This document shows, one piece after another, positions 47,991-64,000 of a stretch of DNA of 64,000 nt. The stretch covers positions 1 through 64,000 of the forward strand of contig CANRJR010000007.1 in NCBI GenBank assembly GCA_947631005.1, read 5' to 3'. Source of the DNA: an uncultured Clostridia bacterium (GTDB lineage: Bacteria > Bacillota > Clostridia > Christensenellales > Borkfalkiaceae). The position numbers were made by a program, and so were the translations under genes. The notes below the pieces were generated by a model. That model saw only the letters and a program-made list of their open reading frames with translations. It had not been told where the DNA came from and did no database searches. Each line of letters starts with the position of its first letter. Positions within the stretch are counted from its first letter, which is position 1.

Positions 47991-50304
47991 TTCGCCCTCC
48001 GACGGCGGTCTCGAACACTTGGTCGACCTCGCTCACGCAGATGAAGTTGAGCTTCTTTCTGATCTCCGCGGGGATCTCCTCGACGTCTTTGCGGTTCTCC
48101 TCGGGAATGATGACGTCGCGGATGCCGATGCGGTTCGCCGCGAGTGCCTTCTCTTTGAGCCCGCCGATGGGCAAGACCTTGCCGCGCAGGGTGATCTCGC
48201 CCGTCATGGCGACGTCCCGCCGTACGGGCTGTCCCGTAAACGCCGAGAGGATCGCCGTCGCCATCGTAATCCCCGCCGACGGACCGTCTTTGGGGGTCGC
48301 CCCCTCGGGGATATGGATATGGATATCTTTCTTTTCGAAGTCCTCGGCGTCGATGCCGTACTTTTCGGCGTGCGCGCGGATGTAGCTGATCGCCGCCCGC
48401 GCCGACTCTTTCATCACGTCGCCCAGCTTGCCCGTGAGCAAAACGTCGCCCTTGCCCTCCATGGCGGACACTTCGATGGTGAGCGTTGCGCCGCCGACCG
48501 CCGTCCATGCGAGCCCTGTCGCCGCGCCCACCTCGTCTTTTTCGAGCATTTCGCCGTCGTGCAGGAAGCGTTTCGCCCCGAGGAATTTTTCGAGATTGTT
48601 CTTATTGACCGCGATAGACTGTTCCCGCCCTTTGGCGATGCGCACCGCCGCTTTGCGGCAGACGCTTCCGATGGTGCGTTCGAGCGAGCGGACGCCCGCT
48701 TCCATCGTGTAGCCCTCGATCATCGCGAAGATCGCGCCGTCGGTGAAGCGCAAATTGTCCGCCGTGAGCCCGTTCTCCCGCAATTTTTTGGGGACGAGAT
48801 AGCGTTTTGCGATCTCGAGCTTCTCCTGCGGCGTATAGCCCGAGAGTTCGATGATCTCCATACGGTCGCGCAGGGGCGCGGGAATGGTGTCGAGGGTGTT
48901 CGCCGTGGCGATGAACATGACCTTGGAGAGGTCGTACTCGACTTCGAGATAGCGATCGCGGAAGGTGTTGTTTTGTTCGGGGTCGAGCACTTCGAGCAGC
49001 GCGCTCGACGGGTCGCCCCGCAGGTCCGCCGAGATCTTGTCCACCTCGTCGAGCAAAAAGACGGGGTTGACCGAGCCCGCGTTTTTCATTTCGAATACGA
49101 TGCGCCCCGGCATCGCGCCGATGTAGGTGCGTCTGTGCCCGCGGATCTCCGCTTCGTCTTTCACGCCGCCGAGGCTCATGCGGACGAATTTCCTGCCGAG
49201 CGCGCGGGCGATGGACTTTGCGATGCTCGTCTTGCCGACCCCGGGAGGACCGACGAGACAGAGGATGGGGGCTTTGAGTTCGCCCGTGAGTTTGAGCACG
49301 GCGAGATACTCCATGACCCGCTCTTTGATCTGTTCGAGCCCGTAATGATCCTCGGCGAGCATGCGTTCCACGTCGTCGAGGGAGGCGGTGTCCTCGGTCT
49401 CCTCGCTCCAAGGAAGATCGGCGATCCAGTCGGCGTAGTTGCGCAGGACGGTCGCTTCGGGGGAGGAGGCGGGCATGCGTTCGAGACGGAAGAGCTCCGC
49501 CGAGACCTTTTCCCAAACCGCCTCGGGCAGACCCTTTTTCTTGATTTTTTCGCGCAGTTCGTCGATCTCCTTGTCCTCGTCGCCGAGCTCGGCATGGATG
49601 GCTTTGAGCTGTTCGCGGAGGAAATATTCCTTTTGCGCCTTGTCGATGCTGTTGCGCACGTCCTGCGCGATCTTGCGCTCTAATTGCAGGATGTTGAGTT
49701 CCTGCTCGGCGAACGTCTCAAAGAGACGAAGACGGGACAAAAGGACGTTCTCTTCGAGAAGTTTCTGCTTGTCCTCGTCTTTGAGGCGCAGATAATGCGC
49801 CCCGATGTCGATATATGCGTCGATATCGGCGACGCCCGTAAGTGCCGCACCCACGTCTTTGGAGATCTTCCCGTCCCCCGCAACGACCTCCTGCATCAGA
49901 GATTTTACGGTGCGGAAATGCGCCTCTTCAAGCATACTGCCCTCGGAGACGGTGGGGACGCTGTCGGTGACGGCGTAGATATAGCCGCTCTCCACGCGAA
50001 ATTCGCGCGCACAGGCGCGGTAGAGTGCCTCGACGACGATGCGCATACGGTCGGCGGGAAGCCGCGTTTTTTGACGGATGACGGCGACCGTCCCCACGGC
50101 ACAGAGGTCCTCGGGGGCGGGGAATTCCTTTTCGGACGTTTTCTGCCGCGTGATAAACACGAAAGAATCGTTCATGCCCGCCCGCTCGACGGCGGCAAGC
50201 GAGATCCCCCGCCCGACGTCGAATGCGACCGTCGTATGCGGAAAGATCACCTGCGTGCGCATGGGGATGACGGATAAGATTTTGGTATAGATCTCGTTGT
50301 CCAT
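47980..50304 (-). CDS. lon: ATP-dependent protease Lon
   Basis: 774 residues. It degrades damaged and regulatory proteins. N-terminal substrate domain (about 1-200), coiled region (200-260), AAA+ module with Walker A GPPGVGKT (352-359) and Walker B FLLDEVDK. The protease domain carries the catalytic Ser in KDGPSAGITMATA and its Lys in LRGKVLPIGGLKEKALAA. Start at 50304 follows AGAGGTATTTCGT, and a longer frame would include the promoter. No CIRCE or CtsR-like repeat is evident at the promoter. Confidence 0.96.
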   Translation of the reverse strand: MDNEIYTKILSVIPMRTQVIFPHTTVAFDVGRGISLAAVERAGMNDSFVFITRQKTSEKEFPAPEDLCAVGTVAVIRQKTRLPADRMRIVVEALYRACAREFRVESGYIYAVTDSVPTVSEGSMLEEAHFRTVKSLMQEVVAGDGKISKDVGAALTGVADIDAYIDIGAHYLRLKDEDKQKLLEENVLLSRLRLFETFAEQELNILQLERKIAQDVRNSIDKAQKEYFLREQLKAIHAELGDEDKEIDELREKIKKKGLPEAVWEKVSAELFRLERMPASSPEATVLRNYADWIADLPWSEETEDTASLDDVERMLAEDHYGLEQIKERVMEYLAVLKLTGELKAPILCLVGPPGVGKTSIAKSIARALGRKFVRMSLGGVKDEAEIRGHRRTYIGAMPGRIVFEMKNAGSVNPVFLLDEVDKISADLRGDPSSALLEVLDPEQNNTFRDRYLEVEYDLSKVMFIATANTLDTIPAPLRDRMEIIELSGYTPQEKLEIAKRYLVPKKLRENGLTADNLRFTDGAIFAMIEGYTMEAGVRSLERTIGSVCRKAAVRIAKGREQSIAVNKNNLEKFLGAKRFLHDGEMLEKDEVGAATGLAWTAVGGATLTIEVSAMEGKGDVLLTGKLGDVMKESARAAISYIRAHAEKYGIDAEDFEKKDIHIHIPEGATPKDGPSAGITMATAILSAFTGQPVRRDVAMTGEITLRGKVLPIGGLKEKALAANRIGIRDVIIPEENRKDVEEIPAEIRKKLNFICVSEVDQVFETAVGGRNGG

Positions 50305-50323
50305 ACGAAATACCTCTTTGACT

Positions 50324-50352
50324 ATTATATCACACCTTTGCGCATATTTCAA
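50324..50352 (-). promoter_or_regulatory. Promoter of lon-ysxC
   Basis: On the minus strand TTGAAA (50347-50352), 17-nt spacer, TATAAT (50324-50329). Confidence 0.8.
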
Positions 50353-50398
50353 ACATTTTTACGGAAAATCGAAAATTGCCGCCTGTTCACGCTTAATA

Positions 50399-51085
50399 GT
50401 CATTTCGAACCATTTTCAATTATGTCATTCAGGGCGGAGAGGCGTTCCAATTATGTCATTTCGAACCATTTTCAATATGTCATTCAGGGCGAAGCGGCGT
50501 TCCAATTATGTCATTTCGAGTGAAGCGGCATTCCCAATTATGTCATTTCGACCAAACGAACGCAGTGAGTGCGTGGAGAAATCTCCCGCAGTCTTATTGC
50601 CCTTAAAAATAAGGGAGATGTTTCGACTACGGCTCGTTTTACTCGCCTCCGCTCAACATGACAAATTAGAAGCGAACAGGCATTCTAATTGTCATTTCGC
50701 CCCGCCCGCGGCTTCTGTTTGTAGACCAAGGGCGGTACGAGCCCGTAGGGCGCAGTCCCAAACCGTCGTTTCCAATATGTCATTTCGAGTGAAGTGACAT
50801 TCCCAATTATGTCATTTCGACCAAACGAACGCAGTGAGTGCGTGGAGAAATCTCCCGCAGTCTTACGTTGTCATTTCGAGTGAAGCGGGCGAAGCCCGCG
50901 GAATCGAGAAATCTCCCTTATTATTTCATAAGCATAGTCAACGACCGAGGGGATTTCTCAACTGCGGCTACGCCTCCGTTCGAAATGACATCGGAATAAA
51001 AACGATAAAAATAAGGGAGATGTTTCGACACAAAAACCCGCGCCGAGCAGGCGCGGGTTTTTGGCTTAACATGATGACATATTAG
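50399..51085. repeat. Largest cluster of repeat families B and C
   Basis: Many partial and full copies: short units (GTCATTTCGAACCATTTTCA repeated, GTCATTCAGGGCG...), longer ones with AAATCTCCCGCAGTCTTA, a family C segment (about 50698-50760) and the hairpin CCCGCGCC/GGCGCGGG (51034-51062). The peptide-like ORFs here are repeat translations. No gene is seen between lon and the XRE gene. Confidence 0.8.
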
Positions 51086-51395: not shown

Positions 51396-54119
51396 ATGAA
51401 ACGAAAAATTTTCTTGATCCTTTGTACGCTCATTGCGTGCGTCTGCCTCGCATTGGGTCTCGCCGCCTGCGGCGGGACGGGCGGCGGCACGCAAGGCGGT
51501 AACGGCGGCACGCAAGGCGGTAACGACGGCAATGCGGAAGAGCAGGAAACGCACGATTGGAGCGATTGGGAGATCGTCAAAGAGGCGACTTGCACCGAGG
51601 AAGGCTCGCGTACACGGACATGCGACGAATGCGGCAAGGCGGAGACGGAAACCATTCCCGCCAAAGATCACACATTTAACGACAGCAATGTCTGTAAAGA
51701 TTGCGGCTTCGAACTTGTTCCCACCGTCGGCTTGGAGTATGAACTCTATGAGGAGACCGAATATCCCCGAGGAGAATATTATCGCGTAAAAGGAATGGGG
51801 ACTGCGACGGACACAGACCTCGTGATCCCTGCTAATCATGCGGGGAAAGCGGTGAAACAAATTGCCGCCGAAGCATTCAACGGGAAAGACGCTTTAACGA
51901 GCGTCTATATTCCCAAGGGCGTGGCGGGGATCGGCATGAACGCCTTTTCCTATTGCATCAGCTTGACTGCATTGCATATTCCCGCCTCTGTGACTACGAT
52001 CGGCAAACAAGCGTTTTACGGGTGCAGTAAAATAAAAGACATTACCCTCGGAACAAACGGAATCACGATTGGTGAAAGCGCATTTGAAAATACCGCCTAC
52101 TATAAAAATAACAAAAATTGGGACAATGGCGCGCTGTATATCGGCGCACATTTGATCGCTACAAACGATAGCCTTCCCTCTTCTTATACCGTGAAAGAGG
52201 ATACGAGTTCGATTGCAACGAAAGCCTTTGCGAATCGGTCGGAATTGAAAGAAATCGTACTACCGTATATCAGAGGTAAGGGAACTAACATATTTTCCAA
52301 TAGCGGTGTTTCAAAAGCCACGGCAACCTATGACAATTTAGATCTGTTGCCCGCAGATCAAATCACCGATTTAACAATTACAAGCGGAACGGTTTATACT
52401 CTGTCGCAGTTTGTCAATGTGGAAAATCTATTTGTAAATACCGATTGGGCAGATAACTCATTTAGTATTCAAGAAGCTCCGCTCGCTGGGTTGGGGAAGC
52501 TAAAAAATCTCAAAGTGAAATGGTTGTGCGGACGCTATCACAGCTATCCCATGCACACCCTTTTCGGCGACGAATATTATAGCGGAAGTGTGGAAATCAA
52601 GCAAGACGCAAAGAGAACGAATCAAGCAGACATAAAAAACTATTATACGGCATATCTCCCCGCAGAGTTGGAAACAGTAACGGTTTTGCAGGGAGATCTC
52701 GGTGCTTATATGTTTTCGAACTGCACAATGATAAAGCGTTTTGATTTGGGCGAAAAAATTGGCAAGATTGATATAGCATTTTGGGGTTGCCGTGACGGCG
52801 TTCGCGTCAATTATGAAGGCACTGTAAAACAATGGGCAGAACAAGAGAAAGGATGTTGGTCGGGATTACGAGATTATAATTCCGATGGGGGTTACGAGCC
52901 GGCATTCGTCGATTTTACAATTCAAAATAGTTCGTTATCGGAAATAAACATTCCGAATGATGTGACTAACATTGCCTCGTATGCTTTTTTCGGTTGCAAA
53001 ATAAATCGTATTGAAATCCCCGACAGCGTGACCTCGATTGGAGATAGGGCGTTCGGGTGGTGCACCTCACTTACGAGCGTGACAATTCCAAACAGTGTGA
53101 TCTCGATTAGAGATGTGGCGTTCTATCAGTGCACCTCACTTACGAGCGTGACGGTTCCCGACAGCGTGACCTCGATTGGGGAGAGTGCGTTCAGTGGTTG
53201 CACGAAACTTACGAGAGTGAATATTACCGACCTTGCGGCGTGGTGTAAAATTGATTTTGGAGGCGATACTGCTAACCCGCTCTATTATGCTTACCATTTG
53301 TATTTGAAAGGCGAAGAGGTGACCACACTCACGATTCCCGACGTGATCACGGAAATTAAGCCGTTCACTTTCTGTGGTGGTGCGTTTACGAGCGTGACGA
53401 TTCCCGACAGTGTGACCTCGATTGGGGAGGATGCGTTCCATGATTGCTACTCTCTTACGAGCGTGACGATTCCCGACAGCGTGACCTCGATTGGGGAGAG
53501 AGCGTTCTATTATTGCACCTCGCTTACAAGCGTGACGATCGGGGGCAGCGTGACCACGATTGGGAAGTGGGCATTCGAAGGTTGCTATAAACTTATAGAA
53601 GTTTGGAATCATTCAACATTGGAACTGAAAAGAGGAAGTGCCAACTATGGTTGTATTGCGTATTATGCGGAGCAAATTTATAAAGGCGACGAAGTTGGCA
53701 AACAGACGGTGACGGACGACGGGTATATCTTCTATGAGGACGGCGAGGAAAATTATCTTCTCGGATATATGGGAAAAGAAACCCAATTAACTCTACCCAC
53801 TACTTCACCGAGCGGAAAACAGTATGAGATTTATCGATATGCGTTCTATTATTGCCGCTCTCTTACGAGTGTGACGATCCCCGACGGCGTGACCTCGATC
53901 GGGGACTATGCGTTCTGTGATTGCAAATCTCTTACGAGCGTGACGATCGGGAGCGGCGTGACCTCGATTGGGGAGGATGCGTTCTGTGATTGCAAATCTC
54001 TTACGAGCGTGACGATCGGGAGCGGCGTGACCTCGATTGGGGAGAGTGCGTTCAATAGGATTAGGGATACAGTAAAAAATCAAAAAAATCTATTAAAACG
54101 GTCATTAAGCAGAGCATAA
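51396..54119 (+). CDS. BspA-like leucine-rich-repeat surface lipoprotein 2
   Basis: 907 residues. Lipoprotein signal (LAACGG), short Gly/Gln/Asn linker, a CxxC segment (TRTCDECGKAETETIP, then CKDCGFELVP), then LRR_5 repeats. The first half is more diverged and AT-richer. The second half (from about 53030) uses the near-identical SVTIPDSVTSIG repeats of lipoprotein 1 and shares a long block with it (53215-53415 versus 45477-45680). The last repeat is followed by an unrelated basic tail (RIRDTVKNQKNLLKRSLSRA), so the normal C-terminal end may be lost. Probably an adhesin under XRE control. Confidence 0.88.
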   Translation: MKRKIFLILCTLIACVCLALGLAACGGTGGGTQGGNGGTQGGNDGNAEEQETHDWSDWEIVKEATCTEEGSRTRTCDECGKAETETIPAKDHTFNDSNVCKDCGFELVPTVGLEYELYEETEYPRGEYYRVKGMGTATDTDLVIPANHAGKAVKQIAAEAFNGKDALTSVYIPKGVAGIGMNAFSYCISLTALHIPASVTTIGKQAFYGCSKIKDITLGTNGITIGESAFENTAYYKNNKNWDNGALYIGAHLIATNDSLPSSYTVKEDTSSIATKAFANRSELKEIVLPYIRGKGTNIFSNSGVSKATATYDNLDLLPADQITDLTITSGTVYTLSQFVNVENLFVNTDWADNSFSIQEAPLAGLGKLKNLKVKWLCGRYHSYPMHTLFGDEYYSGSVEIKQDAKRTNQADIKNYYTAYLPAELETVTVLQGDLGAYMFSNCTMIKRFDLGEKIGKIDIAFWGCRDGVRVNYEGTVKQWAEQEKGCWSGLRDYNSDGGYEPAFVDFTIQNSSLSEINIPNDVTNIASYAFFGCKINRIEIPDSVTSIGDRAFGWCTSLTSVTIPNSVISIRDVAFYQCTSLTSVTVPDSVTSIGESAFSGCTKLTRVNITDLAAWCKIDFGGDTANPLYYAYHLYLKGEEVTTLTIPDVITEIKPFTFCGGAFTSVTIPDSVTSIGEDAFHDCYSLTSVTIPDSVTSIGERAFYYCTSLTSVTIGGSVTTIGKWAFEGCYKLIEVWNHSTLELKRGSANYGCIAYYAEQIYKGDEVGKQTVTDDGYIFYEDGEENYLLGYMGKETQLTLPTTSPSGKQYEIYRYAFYYCRSLTSVTIPDGVTSIGDYAFCDCKSLTSVTIGSGVTSIGEDAFCDCKSLTSVTIGSGVTSIGESAFNRIRDTVKNQKNLLKRSLSRA

Positions 54120-54260: not shown

Positions 54261-55595
54261 ATGGATATGGAAAACGCTTATACTGAGTACAAAAGAGAAT
54301 TGACGGACGGCTTGGAGAAGGAAGTCGTTGCCTTTTTGAATACACTTGGCGGGGATATTTTAATCGGAATAGAAGACAACGGCGAAGTCGTGGGGATTGA
54401 TGCCCCCGACGATATTAGCTTGAAAGTGGCAGACCGTTTGAAAAACAATATCAGCCCGTCCGTCATCGGGCTTTTCCAAATCGATATTTTGGGTGAGCAG
54501 AAGAAATACATCAAAATCTCCGTTGCAGGCGGCTTGGAGAAACCCTATTATATCAAAAAATACGGCATGAGCCCCAAAGGTTGTTTTGTGCGCATCGGAA
54601 CGCAGAGTACGCCGATGGAACAAGCGCAGATCGAAACCTTATTTTCGCACAGAGTCAACCGCACTTTGAGCACAATTATATCCCCTCGGCAAGATCTGAC
54701 GTTTACTCAACTTCGGATTTTTTACGAAGAAAACGGCTTTGATACGAGCGGAGATCATTTCTTCCGAAACTTGGGGATGTACACTTCCGACGGCAGTTTC
54801 AATTACTTCGCCATGCTCCTGTCCGACCAAAACGATGTTACGATGAAGGTTGCCCGTTTCAAAGGAACAGACAAGAATGAAATTGTCACCAGCAAAGAAT
54901 TCGGCTATTGCTGTATCCTGAAAAGCGTCTATAACATCCTTGCCTACTTGGACAATTATAACTTGCCTTCCGTGGAAATTACCTATCCCAAGCGGGTGGA
55001 AAAGTTTTTGGTCGATAAAGTTGCCCTGCGTGAAGCCGTTATCAATGCCATCGTTCACAACGATTATATCAGCGGCGGCGCACCTCTCTTTGAGATTTAC
55101 GACGACCGTATCACAGTTGTTTCTTACGGCGGGCTTGTGGGCGGATTGACGCAGGAAGAATTTTTCAGCGGACGGTCTATGCCGAGGAACAGAGAACTGA
55201 TGCGGGTATTCCGCGACATGGAGTTTGTAGAAAACTTCGGTTCGGGGATCCAACGCATTTTGCGCGTTTATGATCGAAGCATCTTCCAAATTTCCGACAA
55301 CTTTATCATTACCGAGTTCAAGTACGACTCCGAAGTCTTAAAGAAAGTGCGTAACGCGGTTGTTCACGGTGAGCCTGTAAATGAGCCTGTAAATGAGCCT
55401 GTAAAATTGACCGCCACGGCGCAAAAAGTATTGGCACTCATTGGCGAGCAAGGCAATATTACCCTTGAAATTTTGGTCGAAAGAATCGGTGTTTCAAGAG
55501 AAACCATCAAGCGCGCGATCAAACTATTAAAACAAAACGGTTACATTGAACGCGTTGGTTCGGATAAGACGGGATATTGGAAGGTATTGAAGTAG
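54261..55595 (+). CDS. AlbA_2 (Schlafen-type) DNA-binding / ATP-binding HTH protein
   Basis: 444 residues. An N-terminal AlbA_2 domain (EYKRELTDGLEKEVVAFLNT, GGDILIGIEDNGEVVG) is followed by an ATPase/HATPase_c_4-like part (VALREAVINAIVHNDYI, DDRITVVSYGGLVGG, RNRELMRVFRDMEFVENFGSG). A C-terminal winged helix (NITLEILVERIGVSRETIKRAIKLL) ends it. A 12-bp tandem repeat gives EPVNEPVNEPV at about 371-382, a hinge. Members are putative transcriptional regulators and often sit in mobile or defence regions. Composition is AT-richer than the core genes. Confidence 0.85.
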   Translation: MDMENAYTEYKRELTDGLEKEVVAFLNTLGGDILIGIEDNGEVVGIDAPDDISLKVADRLKNNISPSVIGLFQIDILGEQKKYIKISVAGGLEKPYYIKKYGMSPKGCFVRIGTQSTPMEQAQIETLFSHRVNRTLSTIISPRQDLTFTQLRIFYEENGFDTSGDHFFRNLGMYTSDGSFNYFAMLLSDQNDVTMKVARFKGTDKNEIVTSKEFGYCCILKSVYNILAYLDNYNLPSVEITYPKRVEKFLVDKVALREAVINAIVHNDYISGGAPLFEIYDDRITVVSYGGLVGGLTQEEFFSGRSMPRNRELMRVFRDMEFVENFGSGIQRILRVYDRSIFQISDNFIITEFKYDSEVLKKVRNAVVHGEPVNEPVNEPVKLTATAQKVLALIGEQGNITLEILVERIGVSRETIKRAIKLLKQNGYIERVGSDKTGYWKVLK

Positions 55596-55830: not shown

Positions 55831-55859
55831 TTGACAGAGGCTTCCTTTTATGCTATAAT
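55831..55859 (+). promoter_or_regulatory. Promoter of the vWA-phosphatase-kinase-helicase cluster
   Basis: TTGACA (55831-55836), 17-nt spacer, TATAAT (55854-55859), a perfect sigma-A promoter. The rest of the gap 55596-55911 is AT-rich with no gene seen. From here all genes to the window end run in the same direction with no clear terminator between them. Confidence 0.9.
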
Positions 55860-55911
55860 TAAAAGGTGATATGGGAATATATTTAACTATCCAAAAATGT
55901 AAGGAGAACAT

Positions 55912-56274
55912 ATGTCAGAAGTAAAAGGGAAAACAGGTTCGTTCTCTATAGGAGAAAAGAAGCCGGGACAGGAGTATTTCGTGGACTCCTATGGGAACAG
56001 ATATACCGATCATGCGGTAGCAGGCATGCAGCCGAGTGGTCATCGTTATGGCAACGCAGACGGGGGGAGTGGTATTATTTATTATCGCGATTCTCGTGGG
56101 CACGTGGTAGATGGTAGCTCGATTCCTGCCATGTGTGTCGATAATTGTCTAAAAAATGGCACTCGAACGGAAAGCTTTAGGGACGGAAAGAAATGTTATG
56201 TCTATCTGCATGATGGGATCGAGGTTGTGACAAATGCCGAGGGTGTTGTCATAACGACTACGAAGAAAGATTGA
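55912..56274 (+). CDS. Small hydrophilic protein, unknown, first gene of the cluster
   Basis: 120 residues, RBS AAGGAG. Rich in Gly, Tyr and Asp, with short beta-prone segments (DSYGNRYTDHAVAGMQPSGH, GIIYYRDSRGHVVDG, KKCYVYLHDGIEVVTNAEG). No signal peptide or membrane helix. I recognise no family. As the first gene in a run with vWA, phosphatase and kinase genes it could be a substrate, scaffold or sensor of the switch, but that is a guess. Confidence 0.7.
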   Translation: MSEVKGKTGSFSIGEKKPGQEYFVDSYGNRYTDHAVAGMQPSGHRYGNADGGSGIIYYRDSRGHVVDGSSIPAMCVDNCLKNGTRTESFRDGKKCYVYLHDGIEVVTNAEGVVITTTKKD

Positions 56275-56284
56275 ATCTACTATT

Positions 56285-57301
56285 ATGCCCCAATATCAAT
56301 ATTACTACATGCTTTTAAGTCGTCGTGATCGCGAGCTATACGATGCGATTTATAAATCACTACGAGATGAAAATCCTGTCGTGCATGCGTCCCTGCAGGG
56401 AACATCTGGCGAAAAGATTGAGGAAATAATTACCTCTATACAAAGCGATCATCCTGAGCTTGCATTTTTTCATTGGTCAATCGAATATGGCAATGGTGAG
56501 ATACGTTTTACCACACCTGTCGTATCAATTTATAGAAGTCCCTTCTATCATTCACGGCTCGAAAAGATTATAAAGGGCGCAAATGAGCGGAAAACCGAAT
56601 ACGACAAGGAAATATTTATACATGATTACATCGTGCAAAATATTAGTTTCGATCATGATGAAATAAAAGACAATCGAAGCGTACGAGAGAATCATACAGT
56701 AGAAGGCCCTTTGAAAAACGGTAAAGCTGTTTGCGAGGGGATTGCACGTTTTACCCAGTTGCTCCTGTTAGAGGCTGGGTTAAAGGCAATATATGTCGAA
56801 GGAACGAGTCGTTCCTTTGCGACGGACGAACCCGGCGGGCATGCATGGGTGATAGTCTGCATAGAAGGAAGCTATTATCATCTTGATGTTTCGCACGATA
56901 TATGTATGACGGAGGACAAAAGCCGTGTGAAATATAATTATTTCAATTTGACCGATGAAGAAATTTTGTACGACCACACGCTTGACAATCCGTCAAAGCT
57001 TCGCAATCTCGTTTGCAATTGCAAGAAATTCAATTATTTTTACCAATTCAACAGATTTTTCTTGCAACCATTGGAGATTTATCAGGCGATATTGCGTTTT
57101 TTGAGAAACTATGCCAATCATCCACATGAGAATACGTTTCTCTTTCGTGCCTCATTGAATATATCGGAAGAGGAGGTAACGGAATTTGTGCAGAAAGCCA
57201 TGCGGACCTTTTATGACGAAACGGGGATGGGAGTAGGTTATTCGTCTAGTGAGAGTGAGTTGCAAAATGTCTATTCATTTACATTTACATTTGAATCTTA
57301 A
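56285..57301 (+). CDS. Cytoplasmic transglutaminase-like protein
   Basis: 338 residues. The transglutaminase core has a full catalytic triad: Cys150 in GKAVCEGIARFTQLLL, His186 in GGHAWVIV and Asp201 in YYHLDVSHD. The N-terminal ~105 residues are helical and the C-terminal ~100 form a separate domain (from about 245). No signal peptide, so it acts inside the cell as a protease, amidase or crosslinker. Start ATG 56285 lies 11 nt after the previous stop and lacks a strong RBS, so a start at 56309 is possible. Confidence 0.85.
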   Translation: MPQYQYYYMLLSRRDRELYDAIYKSLRDENPVVHASLQGTSGEKIEEIITSIQSDHPELAFFHWSIEYGNGEIRFTTPVVSIYRSPFYHSRLEKIIKGANERKTEYDKEIFIHDYIVQNISFDHDEIKDNRSVRENHTVEGPLKNGKAVCEGIARFTQLLLLEAGLKAIYVEGTSRSFATDEPGGHAWVIVCIEGSYYHLDVSHDICMTEDKSRVKYNYFNLTDEEILYDHTLDNPSKLRNLVCNCKKFNYFYQFNRFFLQPLEIYQAILRFLRNYANHPHENTFLFRASLNISEEEVTEFVQKAMRTFYDETGMGVGYSSSESELQNVYSFTFTFES

Positions 57302-57338
57302 GTGAAACCTCAAAAGAAATCAAAAAGGAGATATACAA

Positions 57339-58022
57339 ATGGAAACTGTTAAGAAAAAAAAGACGATTTATTTCGCAATCGATGCATCTGGATCGATGGC
57401 GGACAAAAGAGCGGGGATTGTCAACACCGCGATGAGGGGAGTATTTGACGATGTGATTCCCGAAATTATTGCGGAGAGCGACAGCAAGCTGGAATTGTCC
57501 ATCGCCGTGCTGTTGTTTTCCGACCAATTCCCCGATGGGGTGAAATGGGTAATCGACAAGACGAATATGGAAGAAATTGCCAATAATCATATTTCTTGGA
57601 CGGATCTCCCTCAAGATTTGTTCTATGGCGGCACCCCTACGGGACAAGGAATTCTTGCGATCATTAATAACTGTAAAAGTGAGAACAGAGGGGAAGTAGA
57701 TATGTGCACGGTCGCTCCTGCCATTATACTGATTTCAGATGGGTTAGCGAATACAGGTAGCCCCAGTTACGAAGAAGTCCTGGAATATGAAGATAAGGCG
57801 CACGTCAATTATAGCGATTTCTTCCGTCATTCTATTCGCGTTGCTATTGGCATTGATGTCGAAGACGAGGGAAAAGAGCAGCTTAAGCGGTTTGGAAAAG
57901 TGTCAAAAGGGATGCTTGCCAAAGGATTGAAACCGTATTATGACCATAGTGATAAATATCAAGACGAGCTCATTGAAATTATTAAGAGTGTAACGAAGAT
58001 GACGTCGTTAGCTCCTGTTTAA
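57339..58022 (+). CDS. vWA-domain protein 1 (TerY-like)
   Basis: 227 residues, a single von Willebrand A domain. The MIDAS metal site is DASGSM (Asp15, Ser17, Ser19), with a Thr in GGTPTGQG and Asp in ILISDG. AAAAAGGAG precedes the ATG. It is soluble. TerY proteins are stand-alone vWA domains that form a triad with a PP2C and a kinase, which are encoded two genes downstream. The neighbouring gene is a near-duplicate. Confidence 0.88.
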   Translation: METVKKKKTIYFAIDASGSMADKRAGIVNTAMRGVFDDVIPEIIAESDSKLELSIAVLLFSDQFPDGVKWVIDKTNMEEIANNHISWTDLPQDLFYGGTPTGQGILAIINNCKSENRGEVDMCTVAPAIILISDGLANTGSPSYEEVLEYEDKAHVNYSDFFRHSIRVAIGIDVEDEGKEQLKRFGKVSKGMLAKGLKPYYDHSDKYQDELIEIIKSVTKMTSLAPV

Positions 58023-58042
58023 TCGTGTAGAGAGCGAATACG

Positions 58043-58702
58043 ATGATAAAAAGGACGATTTATTTCGTAATCGATGTATCTGGCTCGATGGCGGGCGAAA
58101 GAGCAGGGATTGTCAATACCGCGATGAAGGAAGTATTTGATGAAGTGATTCCCGAGGTTATTGCGGGGAGTGACAGCAAGCTAGAATTGTCCATCGCCGT
58201 GCTGTTGTTTTCCGACCAATTCCCCGATGGGGTGAAATGGGTAATCGACGAGATGGATATGGAAGAGATTGCCAATGATCATATTTCGTGGACGGATCTC
58301 CCTCAAGATTTGTTCGATGGCGGTGCGTCTATAGAAGACGGGATTCTTGCGGTCATTAACAATGGAAACAGAATGGAAGTTGATGCGAGGACGCTTGCTC
58401 CTGCCATTATACTGATTTCGGACGGTGGAGAGCCAGCCAGCTATCACTCATATGATGAAGTTTTGGAATATGAAGATAAGGAGTGCGTTAATTACAGTAT
58501 TTTCTTCCGTCATTCTATTCGCGTTGCCATTGGTATCGATGTCGCAGACGAGGCGCGAGAACAGGTAAAGCGCTTTGGGAAAATACCAAAGCGAATGGTT
58601 TCCAGCGGACTTAGGGGATATTATGACACCAGTTCGAAATATCAAGACGTGCTCATTGATATCATTAAGTTTGTGACAGAAACGGTTTCATTGACGATAT
58701 AA
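58043..58702 (+). CDS. vWA-domain protein 2 (TerY-like)
   Basis: 219 residues, MIDAS DVSGSM, same architecture as the preceding protein. More than 70 consecutive bases are identical or nearly so between the two genes (57481-57560 and 58183-58262), while ends and the region after DGGxP/DGGAS differ. This indicates a tandem duplication held similar by gene conversion, or a recent one. It starts 20 nt after its twin. Confidence 0.88.
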   Translation: MIKRTIYFVIDVSGSMAGERAGIVNTAMKEVFDEVIPEVIAGSDSKLELSIAVLLFSDQFPDGVKWVIDEMDMEEIANDHISWTDLPQDLFDGGASIEDGILAVINNGNRMEVDARTLAPAIILISDGGEPASYHSYDEVLEYEDKECVNYSIFFRHSIRVAIGIDVADEAREQVKRFGKIPKRMVSSGLRGYYDTSSKYQDVLIDIIKFVTETVSLTI

Positions 58703-58789
58703 CAGTATAGCAATTAACGTTTTTTATGAAACGGGGGAAGGAACAAAATTTATGATTCCTTTTCCTGTTTCATTTAAAGGAGTTAAGAG

Positions 58790-60526
58790 ATGAATGATGA
58801 GTTAAAAAAAAGTCAATTGGATGAGACTCCTGTAGTTCTTTCGACCTGTCAAGATGAACTGCGCGAGCAAGAGGAAGCAAGAAATACACCATGTGATAGT
58901 TTGACTACAGTTGTGGAATCGGTTATGCCATCAACGGAGAGCACTCATGTTCAATCGGTTGATAAATCCGTCGAAAACAATAATGTCGAATTGCTTACAG
59001 AAACTACCGAGTCCTTGGATGTAGCGATTGTTCATGAAGAAAATAAATCTGGGGACGAAGCGCAAAACGGGGAAGGGAAGTGGAGGCTGTCCTTAAAAGA
59101 TTTTCCGTCTACCGAATCGGGGCTTTTGGAATTAATGTTCGAGCTTGCAAAAACAATCGGTGACTGTCAAACGTTTGCATATGAGGAAGAAATCTTTACG
59201 ACACTGAAGGATCAGGACCATTTCAAAATGGACGAGATTGACGAGATAGTTCGTATTTCGGTTGCTACGAAATCACAGAGTGCCATGGTCTACAACAACC
59301 TGCTCGTTGGTCATTTACTATTAGTTATATTCACACGAGGGAAATATGCTTGGGAGATTTGGACAGAAATTGATTTTCATCAAATGGAAAGAGAGAGCTT
59401 TGATGAAAAAATGCCCTACACGTTGAACCGTGTAAGTGCGCTTTTAAACGTTGCGGCATTTGAAAATTTTCGCATTGCCGAATTGCTTGTACGCATTATA
59501 GTGTGCGGGCAGTCAATTTATAAGCCAGAACTTTGGTGTAAAGTTTTAAGCGCGGAACGCAATCGCCTGACCGTTGTTCCTCGCACTCAAGAAACGCTGA
59601 GCTTTTTGGATTGGAAGGGTAGCTCAATTTCCGTAATTGGTGCCGACCATGAGACATGTGACGATTTCAGTACGGTTGCGGACATATCTAGTGGGCGCGG
59701 TAAGGGTTTTGCCGCGGTATGTTCAGACGGTGTTAGCGCGTGCGAGAATTCCCGCTTTGGCTCAGAGGCAATTGCGCAGGCGGTTATAGAAGTTGTCACG
59801 CGTATGTATCACGATGCGACGTTTCACCCATGTAAGAGTGACAAATTGCAGCTTGATAAAGACGATGCTAGCTCAGTGTCAAGTTTTGCGAGTGAATTGT
59901 TCGTATGCTGGGAGAAGATTTTGAAGCAGCGTTTCGGTGCGGACATTAACATATTTGATTACGGCGCAACGTTGCTTTTTGCGTTCAAGATCAAAAAATT
60001 TATTACCTGCGGAATTGTTGGAGACGGGGTATTCATGATAAAAACGACGGCGGGTTTCCTGCGGCTGACAGATGGATTCTCTTCAATTCAGGAGAATGGA
60101 GCCCCCTACAATGTGGCGTTATTGGGTAGCAAGCCAAACGTGTTAAAGTTGTTTTCCTTTCCTGCAGATGATGTTGATGCGATTTTGATGGGCTCGGATG
60201 GGGTTGACTATCTGTTATACACTTCGGATGAGACGAATGGCGAAGCGACGGGGTCGACAATCGTTTCAAGCGGCATTGAAAACGGAGAAACCGGGAATTG
60301 TCCGAATCCCAACGAGAAAATGGTATTCTGCGCGGATCATGTAAATGGAAGAAAGGTTATGGACTCCCTGTCCAAGTTACCCTTCATTGGTAATGGCGAA
60401 AAAAGCGATGTGCGGGAAACTTTGGATTATTATGTACGTAGGTTTTCTCGTGTCAGCGTAACGGGCGGTGGCGGTGGAGACGATTGTTCATTGGTCTATT
60501 TGCGGCGCTCAAACAAAAAGTTATAA
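58790..60526 (+). CDS. PP2C-family protein phosphatase with long N-terminal extension
   Basis: 578 residues. Residues 1-100 are acidic, Ser/Thr/Glu-rich and probably disordered. 105-265 form a helical domain of unknown type. The PP2C domain covers about 275-575, with FAAVCSDGVSACENSRFGSE (metal Asp), a GDG-like CGIVGDGVFMI, AILMGSDGVDYLL and the C-terminal metal segment GGGGDDCSLVYL. Together with the adjacent kinase it should set phosphorylation of a shared target, possibly its own N-terminal tail. AAGGAG precedes the ATG. Confidence 0.85.
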   Translation: MNDELKKSQLDETPVVLSTCQDELREQEEARNTPCDSLTTVVESVMPSTESTHVQSVDKSVENNNVELLTETTESLDVAIVHEENKSGDEAQNGEGKWRLSLKDFPSTESGLLELMFELAKTIGDCQTFAYEEEIFTTLKDQDHFKMDEIDEIVRISVATKSQSAMVYNNLLVGHLLLVIFTRGKYAWEIWTEIDFHQMERESFDEKMPYTLNRVSALLNVAAFENFRIAELLVRIIVCGQSIYKPELWCKVLSAERNRLTVVPRTQETLSFLDWKGSSISVIGADHETCDDFSTVADISSGRGKGFAAVCSDGVSACENSRFGSEAIAQAVIEVVTRMYHDATFHPCKSDKLQLDKDDASSVSSFASELFVCWEKILKQRFGADINIFDYGATLLFAFKIKKFITCGIVGDGVFMIKTTAGFLRLTDGFSSIQENGAPYNVALLGSKPNVLKLFSFPADDVDAILMGSDGVDYLLYTSDETNGEATGSTIVSSGIENGETGNCPNPNEKMVFCADHVNGRKVMDSLSKLPFIGNGEKSDVRETLDYYVRRFSRVSVTGGGGGDDCSLVYLRRSNKKL

Positions 60527-60578
60527 ATGTTTTGACCATATAAGGGTAATGGTAAAGACAAATACGGAGGAACGGAAT

Positions 60579-61988
60579 ATGCAAGATTATTCTGGAAAAA
60601 CAATCAAATTGAAGAACGGAACCATAAAGCTAATAAAAAAAGCAGGACAAGCGGGGGGACAAGGGACCGTGTATTTTGCGGATTTCAATGGGAAAAATTA
60701 CGGTTTCAAAATACTGTTTTCAAAAGATGATCCGCTGGGCGAACAAAAATGCAAGAATATTAAGGAATTACTGCGTCGGAAGGCTAAATTGGACCAAAAG
60801 ATTGGGGACAATGGAAATTTTACATTCACGTTTCCAATCGAGGAAACGAAAGTGGACGGCGAAGAAGCCTATCTCATGGAGTGGGCGACTGGGAAAGATG
60901 TTTCTACGCTTATTGAGGACGGAACTTTCGATAAATATTCGCTACAGGAGAGATTGGAGGTCATATGGAAAATTAATGAGGCATTATTGTTTTTAAGTCA
61001 AGACGCTCTTTGCTATCAGGATATTAATGCCGAAAATATTTTTTATGATACCGTATCAAAACTGGTGACTGTAATCGATACGGAAAATACGACAGATGCG
61101 TACATGGTCGAAAATGGAGAGGCCGCTTTCGTTAAAGGAAAGGGCTTTTATATGGCGCCAGAAGTGGGTGCGGGTTTGGTAAAATGCGCGGCAAAACCTT
61201 CCGATTATTATGCCATGGCCGCACTGTATTATTCTATTCTTACATGCTCGACGAATTCTCCGTATCATGGTCGTGTCTTATACGAGAATTTTTCTTTGCG
61301 GGATGCTGGTGATATGGATATTGCATGTGAGCGTGCGGAGGAAGATGATGAGCTTGAAGATTTTCTCACCTTTACATTCGATCCGACTAATCATGTCAAT
61401 AGTTTGGAAGATTTTTGCAAAGAAGTCAAGGGAAAGTGGAAAGAAGAATCCAATAAGCGACTTTTGAGGCATCTTGAAGGCATAACTAAAAATTGGAATG
61501 AGGTTCCGAATGAACTGAAAGAATTACTGTATAAAGCATTTTCGAACCCGCTTAATCCAGCTTGTTACACGAAGCGTCCATTGCCCTTGGCGTGGGAAAG
61601 ACGTTTAAAGAAGTTGCTGAATAAAGATGCGTGCTCCACAGTCCCAGACAATTCGGGCAAGGAAGAATTAAGTTATTCAAACAAGCCGAATTTGCAAAAT
61701 GGTTGCGGACTATATCTATTTAATTCATTTGGCGACAGGCTTTATTTAACAGACGATGAAACCTTAATCCCTATGAGTTTTGTGGATTCAAACTCTAAGG
61801 GAGGATTTGGCAAGGTGAAAAAGCATGGTAATGAGTGGGTGTTTGTTAAAATGGGCATTTGGAACTTGGAGGCCTCAAAGAATAATCGCTATTGTTGTTC
61901 TAATGTGAAAGAGATTGTTATAGAAGAAGGTATGCGGATTTTTCAAGCCGGCAACAGCAAGATATTTATTGGAATAGAAAGAGTGTAA
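60579..61988 (+). CDS. Protein kinase-like protein (Ser/Thr type) of a TerY-P-like triad
   Basis: 469 residues. Kinase motifs: Gly loop KAGQAGGQGTVYFADF (21-36), Lys44 in YGFKIL, MEWATGKDV hinge, catalytic CYQDINAENIFYD (Asp148, Asn153; HRD replaced by YQD), VIDTEN (Asp167; DFG replaced) and FYMAPEV (193-195). Thus key catalytic residues are kept in divergent motifs. The C-terminal ~150 residues (from about 320) form an unknown domain ending in a beta-rich segment (GLYLFNSFGDRLYLTDDE...). ATG 60579 is chosen for its ACGGAGG. A longer frame overlaps the phosphatase gene. Confidence 0.87.
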   Translation: MQDYSGKTIKLKNGTIKLIKKAGQAGGQGTVYFADFNGKNYGFKILFSKDDPLGEQKCKNIKELLRRKAKLDQKIGDNGNFTFTFPIEETKVDGEEAYLMEWATGKDVSTLIEDGTFDKYSLQERLEVIWKINEALLFLSQDALCYQDINAENIFYDTVSKLVTVIDTENTTDAYMVENGEAAFVKGKGFYMAPEVGAGLVKCAAKPSDYYAMAALYYSILTCSTNSPYHGRVLYENFSLRDAGDMDIACERAEEDDELEDFLTFTFDPTNHVNSLEDFCKEVKGKWKEESNKRLLRHLEGITKNWNEVPNELKELLYKAFSNPLNPACYTKRPLPLAWERRLKKLLNKDACSTVPDNSGKEELSYSNKPNLQNGCGLYLFNSFGDRLYLTDDETLIPMSFVDSNSKGGFGKVKKHGNEWVFVKMGIWNLEASKNNRYCCSNVKEIVIEEGMRIFQAGNSKIFIGIERV

Positions 61989-61998
61989 TTCAGATGAT

Positions 61999-62121
61999 AT
62001 GATTTTGTATTTATCAGAAGTTGGTAGAAGGAATTTCCCAATGGGATGAACAAGAGCAAGTGAACAAAAGGAGAAAACGGAAGAAGCGAAAGAAGTTTTT
62101 GAGCGTTCCGCGGATAAAATT
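61999..62121 (+). other. Possible interrupted start of the helicase gene (in-frame TGA)
   Basis: An ATG at 61999, in the same frame as the helicase, opens MILYLSEVGRRNFPMG and then hits TGA (62047-62049). After the stop the frame stays open and protein-like (TRASEQKEKTEEAKEVFERSADKI) into the helicase. No ATG or RBS-supported start exists between the TGA and residue 34 of the helicase reading. A single TGG-to-TGA change at codon 17 would explain this, as would an unusual start. Confidence 0.5.
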
Positions 62122-64000
62122 GTGAATAAAGAGTTGTATGACAAATATTTGAATCTGTTGCGTAAGCTAAAAAAGGACCGTCCTGAATGGACAAAACATC
62201 CTAATGCATGGATTGAGGATATGTATCATTCAGAAAAGGGTCCCTTTTTTGATGCATTAAAATCCCTAAGCGATGATGTGGTTTCGTGCTTAGAAAGCAC
62301 TGATATGCCCCAAAATCGGCATGAAGCTAATGCTCTGTTTGAATCCGTTGTAGATTATGTTGCGCAACGAGCAGAGGATATTTCCTCAATACGATTTACT
62401 TATGGCGCAGCTGAATTTATCACAAAATTATATATGGATTATTTCGGTTATCCACAAACGGATACGAGTGTAGACGATTTGGATGAGAATGTTATTGACG
62501 AATCGGTGTTGCTTTTTGACTCTGATATTTCACTGGCGGGAGATGCCTGTCGACAGACGCTTGTTGAATATCAGAATCGATTAAAAAACCTCTCCCGCAA
62601 CAATCGATTGGTTAATTTTAAGCAACAGAAAAATGCAATGCTATCGTTCTGTTATCCATCCACGCGTAATCTATTTAAGATGTTGTTAGAGGGCAAAACT
62701 TTAACGATCGTAAATTGGGAGCGCGCAGGTTTAAAACAGATACTACGTTGTCGCAACCCTGAATGCGGTAAATATATGTTTCGCAAGTACATCGCAAAAT
62801 CTAGTAATCAATTGGAATATTGCCCGATTTGCGACAGTATAAATGGCAAATCGAAGCATATGGCACCGCTCGAGGAAAAGCCGTTTTTTTCTGTGGAGCA
62901 AGAGATGGTGGTCAATTGTGTGGGTTGCGGAGAACAAGTCAGGCTTCCTACTGAGTTGTTTGAAAGTAAAACAGCGGAAAGCATCGTGTGTCCTATTTGC
63001 GGTGAGGGGCTAATAAAGTCGTATCCTTTTGTGTTTCTGAAAGGGCTGAAGGAGAAAAGAATCATGAACGATAATTCGGCTTTTCTCGATTTCGGACGGG
63101 CTTTGGACGTTGCACACAAGCTGATTTCGCGAGATAAAAATATGCAAAAGAATTTTGGCTTGCGTGCATTATATATGGCATTCGGATTTTTAAATTGGTC
63201 AGATGTTACTGGTTTGACATACCGATCTCCTCTTCTGCTTTTGAGAGTTATCCTGTACCAAGATGCAAATAAAAATTATTGTCTTGCGGTGGACGGCGAT
63301 GCATCGGAGGCGGTCAGTATCAATAAGACGCTGGAATATATTTTGGGGCATTATAGCCGAGATTTGTCATTTACAATTCCTTCCTATGAGAAAGAGGAGT
63401 TCGGAGCATACCTGCATCGAGTAAAAAAAGAGATTGCAAAGTTCAATCTTGAGTGGACGGTGGAGGAGGCAGCTGTCCTTGGACTGTTTAATCATCAAAA
63501 AAGCCAACTGGAGGAGGAAATCAAGGGGTATTTTGATGAATATCTCGCTAATCCATTTATAAATCGCATATGCGGGGGAGTGCGGTCCTTGCCAAGTTGT
63601 ACTTTTATTCATGGGGGAGAGTTTAGCATCTGTGATGCGGATGCAAGCCAACAACTTGTTATAGATGAGGCAATCAGTGGAGAATCATTTGTGTTGCAGG
63701 GACCGCCAGGGAGCGGAAAAAGCCAAACAATAACAAATCTTATTACAGAGTTTATTGCGCGCGGGAAAACAGTTTTGTTTGTTACACAGAAATCCACGGC
63801 TCGCGAAATTATTTGTAGCAATATGCGGGAACGCAGTGTAGGCGATAATTCTTTAATTGATTATTGCTTAAATTTTGATGCTCTCACAAGTAGCGCAAAT
63901 GGCATTACGAAGAAATCGTTCAAAGATCACATGAATGAAATTTTTGGTAAAATGCTAAATATAGACCCTGTAATAGATGCAAACAATGAATCCAACGAGG
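62122..64000 (+). CDS. DUF4011-type superfamily 1 helicase with two zinc ribbons (3' end outside window)
   Basis: Open for 626 codons to the window end, so the C-terminal helicase motifs are not seen. GTG 62122 is a nominal start without RBS. The LKNLSRNNRLVNF segment (about 154-166) is the DUF4011 hallmark, SPLLLLRVIL (369-378) is typical of these proteins, and Walker A is GPPGSGKSQTITNL (527-540). Between them lie two four-Cys zinc ribbons: C210, C215, C234, C237 and C266, C269, C290, C293. Proteins of this class are large DNA/RNA helicases, some fused to nucleases. It is the likely effector or target of the upstream phosphatase-kinase-vWA module. Strongly AT-rich relative to the core genes. 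Confidence 0.82.
   Translation, partial: MNKELYDKYLNLLRKLKKDRPEWTKHPNAWIEDMYHSEKGPFFDALKSLSDDVVSCLESTDMPQNRHEANALFESVVDYVAQRAEDISSIRFTYGAAEFITKLYMDYFGYPQTDTSVDDLDENVIDESVLLFDSDISLAGDACRQTLVEYQNRLKNLSRNNRLVNFKQQKNAMLSFCYPSTRNLFKMLLEGKTLTIVNWERAGLKQILRCRNPECGKYMFRKYIAKSSNQLEYCPICDSINGKSKHMAPLEEKPFFSVEQEMVVNCVGCGEQVRLPTELFESKTAESIVCPICGEGLIKSYPFVFLKGLKEKRIMNDNSAFLDFGRALDVAHKLISRDKNMQKNFGLRALYMAFGFLNWSDVTGLTYRSPLLLLRVILYQDANKNYCLAVDGDASEAVSINKTLEYILGHYSRDLSFTIPSYEKEEFGAYLHRVKKEIAKFNLEWTVEEAAVLGLFNHQKSQLEEEIKGYFDEYLANPFINRICGGVRSLPSCTFIHGGEFSICDADASQQLVIDEAISGESFVLQGPPGSGKSQTITNLITEFIARGKTVLFVTQKSTAREIICSNMRERSVGDNSLIDYCLNFDALTSSANGITKKSFKDHMNEIFGKMLNIDPVIDANNESNE

Follow-up and report, generated by a model that had tools for sequence, protein, structure and literature searches.

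Organization of the locus

We analysed a window of 64,000 nucleotides from an uncultured Clostridia bacterium (assembly GCA_947631005.1, contig CANRJR010000007.1, positions 1 to 64,000) and describe here the operon at its downstream end, in which a TerY-P-like triad (a vWA protein, a PP2C phosphatase and a Ser/Thr-kinase-like protein) stands ahead of a DUF4011/UPF1-like SF1 helicase. These four genes recur together in other genomes and are referred to as the core. The three remaining genes, coding for a small protein, a transglutaminase-like protein and a second vWA protein, are referred to as accessory.

The operon follows a sigma-70-like promoter (TTGACA-17-TATAAT with an extended -10 TG, positions 55831–55859, + strand, 12/12 match). 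Downstream of it the list of open reading frames (ORFs) holds seven open genes, all on the + strand, in the order small protein, transglutaminase, vWA 1, vWA 2, PP2C, kinase and helicase. A perfect promoter heading such a seven-gene row had been claimed by the initial annotation and was borne out, with Pfam matches for every gene but the small one. Clear ribosome sites were read ahead of 4 of the 7 genes, and we infer that all seven form one transcript. A perfect promoter site appeared in 5 of 400 dinucleotide shuffles of the 54–64 kb stretch. Despite this, the site is notable rather than decisive, because the whole window contains four perfect sites.

The first core gene (57339–58022, + strand; PF00092, E = 4.1e-7) encodes vWA protein 1, which is TerY-like, has the MIDAS sequence DxSGS and is 41–43% identical to the vWA proteins of two other loci, L052 and L055. 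The PP2C phosphatase (58790–60526, + strand, 578 amino acids; PF13672 (PP2C_2), E = 1.6e-11) carries an N-terminal extension that is common to the window, L052 and L055 (segment 154–200 matched at an independent E-value of 1.3e-5) and found no match in five other TerY-P PP2Cs. The kinase-like protein (60579–61988, + strand; PF00069, E = 2.9e-8) has 469 amino acids when read from the ATG at 60579, which is probably its start rather than the GTG at 60468, and no C-terminal zinc ribbon. It is divergent, as previously described: the catalytic Asp and Asn are kept, with YQD in place of HRD and DTE in place of DFG.

The window contains the first 626 of the 1589 residues of the helicase (62122–64000, + strand); the full ORF (L002:8123-12892) ends beyond it, at contig base 66,891. 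Pfam recognised DUF4011 (3.7e-16), AAA_11/AAA_12 and an MTES_1575 restriction endonuclease (REase) domain (8.6e-16). The Walker A motif was located by alignment (63700–63723, + strand), and the helicases that group with this one (see below) have both Walker motifs intact. By reading, the vWA MIDAS, the PP2C Asp residues and the helicase Walker A/B are all present. The helicase scored 723 bits against PADLOC PDC-S37, 318 bits against PADLOC Hhe, 657 bits against NCBIfam ProA and 489 bits against NCBIfam Hhe.

Recurrence of the four-gene core

The helicase alignment was scanned against species genomes, and the best 80 of at least 542 confirmed relatives were kept. Triad profiles were then run on these 80 loci, on 19 further fetched helicase loci and on the locus of genome G129. 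A complete vWA/PP2C/kinase triad was found beside 3 of the 80 helicases (L052, L055 and L072) and beside none of the 19; L071 and L119 gave a kinase match only, with no complete triad. Since 17 of 77 measured loci from the 80 are flanked by less than 5 kb of sequence at each side, some helicase neighbours may have been missed.

L052 and L055 show the same order as the window, vWA-PP2C-kinase-helicase, and the order at L072 is kinase-vWA-PP2C-helicase. A further copy was found by a vWA search of 151 genomes around that of L055: in genome G778 the vWA, PP2C and a cut kinase lie at the end of contig C66, and a cut helicase (2159 bits) lies at the end of contig C85. The TerY-P-like triad beside a DUF4011 helicase, first noticed in the window, thus stands at L052, L055 and L072 as well, and on two contig ends in G778. 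The window helicase is only 32–33% identical to those of L052 and L055, and vWA-PP2C-kinase-helicase is, almost certainly, one recurring unit.

The initial annotation had also treated all seven genes as one unit that might travel together. The four core genes do recur, but the three accessory ones do not: by phmmer, neither the transglutaminase nor the small protein nor a second vWA was found in L052, L055 or the readable stretch of G778. The idea of a conserved seven-gene system was rejected for this reason.

The four-gene unit looks rare by sequence search. The PP2C was found in 1 of 101 relatives, the window genome itself, in a single-sequence search that could miss a diverged copy. With the vWA alignment, 3 of 291 class genomes gave a match, one being the window genome and the other two carrying distant triads. 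A single vWA query matched 2 of 398 phylum genomes, of which one is its own and the other, G129, holds a distant vWA. The PP2C result makes acquisition of the operon, as suggested earlier, likely.

Some other loci met in these searches are recorded here. Another phospho-signalling neighbourhood of the helicase family lies at L071:1846-17467, where a kinase comes after the DUF4011 helicase and reading of the genes beyond it suggests FHA-type, radical-SAM, ClpA-type AAA and PP2C proteins. In genome G892 (L170:4562-16836) a two-vWA TerY-P triad adjoins a 1817-amino-acid protein with Listeria-Bacteroides repeats and a Hint match below the cut-off. In G736 (L154:7811-8158) a gene for a TerY_C metal-binding protein (PF15616) lies next to a canonical TerY-P kinase; no protein of the window operon matched TerY_C.

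Phylogenetic relationships

The helicase tree was built from 386 columns and 96 rows, with the insert and the nuclease (both described below) left out. The helicases of the window, L052, L055 and G778 come out as one clade, with an SH-aLRT of 100 and the branching window,(L052,(L055,G778)). In the vWA tree the clade has a support of 97/96, and L052, L055 and G778 are grouped at 99/97, a branching compatible with that of the helicases. The two vWA copies of the window are sisters (99/98), which makes the doubling specific to the window among the rows compared. In the kinase tree five canonical TerY-P kinases group at 100/99.

The L072 helicase lies apart from the clade, and an approximately unbiased (AU) test does not reject a single clade (p = 0.397). 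Two independent origins of TerY-P coupling, one in the clade and one at L072, are accordingly not claimed.

Sequence changes within the clade

Three changes set the clade apart. The first is a Cys-rich, zinc-ribbon-like insert in the DUF4011 domain (62734–63006, + strand, from the alignment), with Cys 210, 215, 234, 237, 269, 290 and 293 in the window helicase. Just 3 of 97 helicases, from the window, L052 and L055, show the seven aligned cysteines; in the remaining 94 there is no CxxC at this position. The G778 helicase, which is outside the 97, has the insert too, as judged by reading.

The second change concerns the kinase. A C-terminal ribbon is present in all five other TerY-P kinases (L072, L030, L154, L155 and L170), and its CxxC pair was found neither in the three full clade kinases nor in the cut one. 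A profile comparison aimed at a common fold of the C-termini of clade and ribbon-type kinases was not significant (E = 0.065). Taken together, the presence of the insert and the absence of the kinase ribbon look like a putative zinc module moved from the kinase to the helicase.

The third change affects the Vsr-like nuclease domain. Both conserved Asp residues are present in 90 of the 94 helicases covered there, the exceptions being the window, L052, L055 and L107, the last of which sits elsewhere in the helicase tree. The window copy keeps D1514 and has E1532 for Asp and A1533 for Gly. In L052 and L055 the first Asp and the Gly are gone, and G778 reads like L055. Judged from these residues, the nuclease is probably inactive in the clade helicases, and the loss of motif residues makes the domain a probable nucleic-acid-binding remnant.

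Accessory genes of the window copy

The three extra genes appear to be local additions. vWA protein 2 (58043–58702, + strand; vWA match, E = 2.5e-6) is a tandem copy of vWA 1, with 73% protein identity and 524 of 660 aligned bases identical.

The stand-alone transglutaminase-like protein (56285–57301, + strand, 338 amino acids; PF01841 (Transglut_core), E = 8.5e-11; PF04473, E = 8e-9) has the Cys, His and Asp residues and, by reading, no signal peptide. Relatives were found in 53 of 148 class genomes, its own included, and in 8 faecal phage records. It was rejected as a marker of the system, being common in the class and having, at 6 places with 7 homologues, no vWA in the stretch. Two of its relatives are noted for their surroundings: one lies about 0.9 kb from a kinase-like ORF on the opposite strand (L161:8733-12251, G504), and another, near the end of its contig, faces a DUF4011 helicase in convergent orientation (L043:9797-10480, G300:C64).

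An N-terminal domain with a C-x-D ... H-A motif occurs in 19 of 97 helicases and falls in the ProA model (11 of 11 tested). Weak Pfam transglutaminase matches are the commonest kind for this domain (DUF553 in 7 of 11 and Transglut_core in 4 of 11, with best E-values of 0.0045 and 0.0053). For 25 whole helicases, no transglutaminase family was among the matches listed (top 25 of 32 families). A profile comparison of the domain with the window transglutaminase was not significant (E = 0.22 and 0.29; a kinase control was better, at 0.15), and the domain had no PDB match. It is probable that ProA-type helicases carry a transglutaminase domain in cis; the motif is absent from the window helicase. 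By analogy, this cis arrangement is a precedent for the extra transglutaminase gene. The domain also occurs in a 2669-amino-acid Myxococcota protein (L119:5749-13758), in which a kinase, the ProA-type transglutaminase-like domain, DUF4011, an SF1 helicase, a Vsr-type REase and DUF3320 are joined.

The small protein (55912–56274, + strand, 120 amino acids) resembles, by BLASTP, the C-terminal domain of a MuF-like phage protein, a putative toxin-type domain. It is 37% identical over 101 amino acids to the end of a 478-amino-acid protein of G655 (pairwise E = 5e-10), which we take to be MuF-like from a reading of its metal-ligand motif. Matches were found in 2 of 196 class genomes, its own and G655. 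Nothing exceeded the cut-off in Pfam, and nothing was found in NCBIfam, PADLOC or PHROGs. For the related domain of L218 there were 2 matching plasmid records and no phage record; a place in Paracoccus is unannotated. Given the cis precedent for the transglutaminase and the MuF-like match of the small protein, the extra genes might form a toxin-type or protein-modifying effector arm, a proposal that we put forward tentatively and hold to be unlikely.

Genomic setting and neighbouring genes

The window genome (G000) comprises 2.0 Mb in 75 contigs, and the window contig, C7, ends at base 68,439. In steps of 2 kb, the GC content is 0.519–0.648 over 1–50 kb and 0.405–0.436 over 54–64 kb, in agreement with the AT-rich composition claimed for the operon. 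The fall begins past a lon-type gene. In 12 same-genus genomes no operon gene was found by BLASTP in the flanks of lon as a possible insertion hot spot, several of these flanks being short. Between the lon-type gene and the island, overlapping ORFs with repeated short phrases (50297–51085) suggest a small repeat array, and a 907-amino-acid BspA-type leucine-rich-repeat protein (51396–54119) lies at the island edge.

Directly upstream of the promoter is a Schlafen-type gene (54261–55595, + strand), for which Pfam recognised AlbA_2, HATPase_c_4 and a winged helix; the AlbA_2 neighbour mentioned in the initial annotation is therefore real. This architecture is a common neighbour of BREX-type and related loci according to PMC12839542. 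We count the gene as a neighbour of the window operon; phmmer found no counterpart beside L052 or L055.

Sequence past 64 kb, where nuclease, TerD or other effector genes had been hoped for, covers the rest of the helicase and then a phage-type gene (L002:13017-14440, contig bases 67016–68439) that is cut by the contig end, so that the flank past the helicase is only 1.5 kb long. The phage-type gene matched phrog_8308 (5e-55) and three faecal phage records at 28–41% identity; no solved relative was found. Reading of the ORFs in the sequenced part of the island revealed no structural phage genes. Elsewhere in the window genome (L046:5510-10765, G000:C14) there is a second, distantly related DUF4011 helicase, with 768 bits against PDC-S37.

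Proposed function and alternative explanations

Based on the recurrence of the core and the three sequence changes we propose that a TerY-P phospho-switch and a DUF4011/UPF1-like SF1 helicase are inherited as a four-gene unit, most likely used against invading DNA; we give this reading as a whole an even chance. For a role of the core in defence, taken on its own, the balance is slightly favourable. The support is contextual and comes from the helicase models, the best of which (PDC-S37, ProA and Hhe) are anti-phage, and from the neighbours, a Schlafen-type gene adjoining the window copy and HamA lying near L052. Upstream of the L052 unit (L173:211-11107, G770:C27) HamA, a DEAD-box helicase, ImmA/IrrE-HTH, HipA and a tyrosine integrase lie at distances of 6–17 kb, with the Hachiman-type pair about 13 kb away; the DEAD-box helicase is presumably HamB. 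The cis fusion of a kinase with a DUF4011 helicase at L119 was also counted in favour of the proposal. A direct functional link between triad and helicase is pointed to by their pairing in diverged genomes together with the zinc-binding-type module, which is missing in one partner and present in the other.

In the mechanism that we envisage, the DUF4011 domain and the zinc-ribbon-like insert would allow the helicase to survey nucleic acid or protein. The metal-dependent peptide-binding site of the vWA protein, as known from vWA biology, would tether kinase and PP2C to the helicase. These two enzymes would control whether the helicase, the enzymes themselves, or targets from host or invader are phosphorylated, and the helicase would be released only on a signal, via its phosphorylation state. 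With the Vsr-like domain probably left as a remnant that binds nucleic acid, the output would be ATP-driven translocation or remodelling together with phosphorylation, and not cutting in cis. The window copy would have gained three further genes under its one promoter, for a second vWA, a cytoplasmic transglutaminase and a protein like the MuF C-terminus; speculatively, these could serve as an effector arm. A bolder version, which we consider doubtful, is a separate phospho-regulated immune helicase in which the zinc sensor of the kinase would in effect have been replaced by one inside the helicase, the nuclease would have been given up, and killing or blocking would proceed by phosphorylation and, in the window copy, by the transglutaminase and the MuF-type domain.

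Several observations weigh against this proposal. DUF4011 helicases mostly lack an adjacent triad in our sample (3 of the best 80 of at least 542, and 0 of 19, have one), and TerY-P triads without such a helicase adjoining occur in G129, G736, G734 and G892, an arrangement that the initial annotation had named as speaking against its combination. The kinase tree places the four clade kinases on one side of a branch with weak support (61/26). We recognised no complete known system for defence next to the window copy, whose flank is cut 1.5 kb after the helicase, or next to L055, where the ORFs were inspected by eye only. Inactivity of the nuclease is not certain, because the change of the second acid in the window from Asp to Glu is mild and, of the 90 helicases that have retained the two acids, 37 lack the ECDG glutamate as well. 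Finally, L072 pairs TerY-P with a helicase that has an intact nuclease motif and no insert, and its kinase has the ribbon. The three changes are therefore not needed for coupling.

The core could instead serve stress response or DNA repair and not be directed at phages: on sensing metal or damage, TerY-P would license the helicase to take part in repair or in fork processing. The authors who described TerY-P connect it with the sensing of metals and with DNA processing (PMC11090510 and PMC4978471), the zinc-ribbon-like insert is compatible with metal or DNA sensing, and a weakened nuclease on the helicase is compatible with repair. The patchy distribution (PP2C in 1 of 101 relatives and vWA in 2 of 398 phylum genomes, as above), the anti-phage nature of the best named helicase models and the Schlafen-type and HamA neighbours all argue in the other direction, and we regard a repair function as possible, on the unlikely side.

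A cargo for prophage or mobile-element competition is improbable. Here the MuF-like domain and the transglutaminase would be a toxin-type module, and TerY-P and the helicase would regulate it or exclude rival phages. This would account for the phage-type gene after the helicase, the match of the small protein to the end of a MuF-like protein, the faecal phage relatives of the transglutaminase and the AT-rich island. However, the sequenced island holds no recognised structural phage gene, no relative on a viral contig was confirmed for the vWA, the PP2C, the small protein or the helicase and kinase alignments, and the core occurs without the toxin-like gene or the transglutaminase. The chance neighbourhood of an ordinary TerY-P triad and an unrelated DUF4011 helicase, each of which is found alone elsewhere, is very improbable and already contradicted by the same adjacency in genomes whose helicases are only 32–33% identical, the compatible helicase and vWA branching and the paired ribbon changes in kinase and helicase.

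TerY-P triads are known from many genomes, and at this locus and its counterparts the triad goes with one kind of helicase although the genomes have diverged. The locus also adds a case in which a defence-type helicase has kept its Vsr-like domain, lost motif residues and taken a signalling module as partner.

Comparison with known systems

In the TerY-P triad, vWA, PP2C and Ser/Thr kinase are stand-alone proteins encoded in one operon, and the window shows the same arrangement. Unlike canonical TerY-P, whose kinase carries a C-terminal zinc ribbon, it has a kinase without a ribbon, an extra N-terminal region on the PP2C and a DUF4011 helicase as partner. An anti-phage form of TerY-P, in which the kinase has a C-terminal OB fold, was reportedly described by Gao et al. 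in 2020; the window kinase matched the PADLOC model STK_OB with 16 bits (9e-4) in the kinase domain only, and no PADLOC model matched the window vWA and PP2C. The kinase also resembles MAD6 of MADS and PD-T4-6 (35 and 42 bits for the window, 77 and 72 bits for L052), and no partner genes of either system were recognised; the window helicase scored only 24 bits against mad8. Activity of TerY-P against T7-like phages has been reported (PMC7699616).

A close parallel to the coupling itself is found in the CoCoNuTs. Types II and III-A combine TerY-P with the UPF1-like helicase CnuH, vWA duplication and inactivated PD-(D/E)xK domains are reported, and the types that hold other nucleases and effectors are without TerY-P (PMC11090510). 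Similarly, the window has TerY-P beside a UPF1-like SF1 helicase, a duplicated vWA and a damaged nuclease motif. It differs in the DUF4011/Vsr-like architecture of the helicase and in having no McrC match. The McrC family PF10117 was absent from all five genomes searched (the clade members G000, G770, G771 and G778, and in addition G772), a search that did not include McrB and whose control was weak (family found in 1 of 14 control genomes); on this basis CoCoNuT membership was rejected.

The helicase itself is closest to the anti-phage proteins ProA, Hhe and PDC-S37, which combine DUF4011, AAA_11/12 and a Vsr-type REase as in the window. It is unlike them in having no DUF3320 match, a Cys-rich insert, a damaged nuclease motif and a linked TerY-P triad. 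With 657 and 489 bits it remains far below the cut-offs of the ProA (NF058533, 1500 bits) and Hhe (NF042953, 2000 bits) models. The PDC-S37 match spans positions 7–1340 of 1550, and five other DUF4011 helicases reach 768–1503 bits compared with 723 for the window. ProA has a transglutaminase-like domain in cis at its N-terminus; the window has a stand-alone transglutaminase gene upstream. MTES_1575-type proteins unite a transglutaminase, an SF1 helicase and a Vsr REase in one chain with HEPN and a winged helix-turn-helix (PMC3710099). In contrast to these fusions, the transglutaminase is a separate gene present only in the window copy. The window helicase matches the Vsr/MTES_1575 domain in Pfam, with one Asp of the conserved acid pair changed to Glu.

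We found no literature linking TerY-P to a DUF4011 helicase; the 2012 TerY-P survey of Anantharaman was not covered, and a prior description may exist. The four-gene core is a coherent and apparently rare variant of TerY-P-coupled helicase systems.

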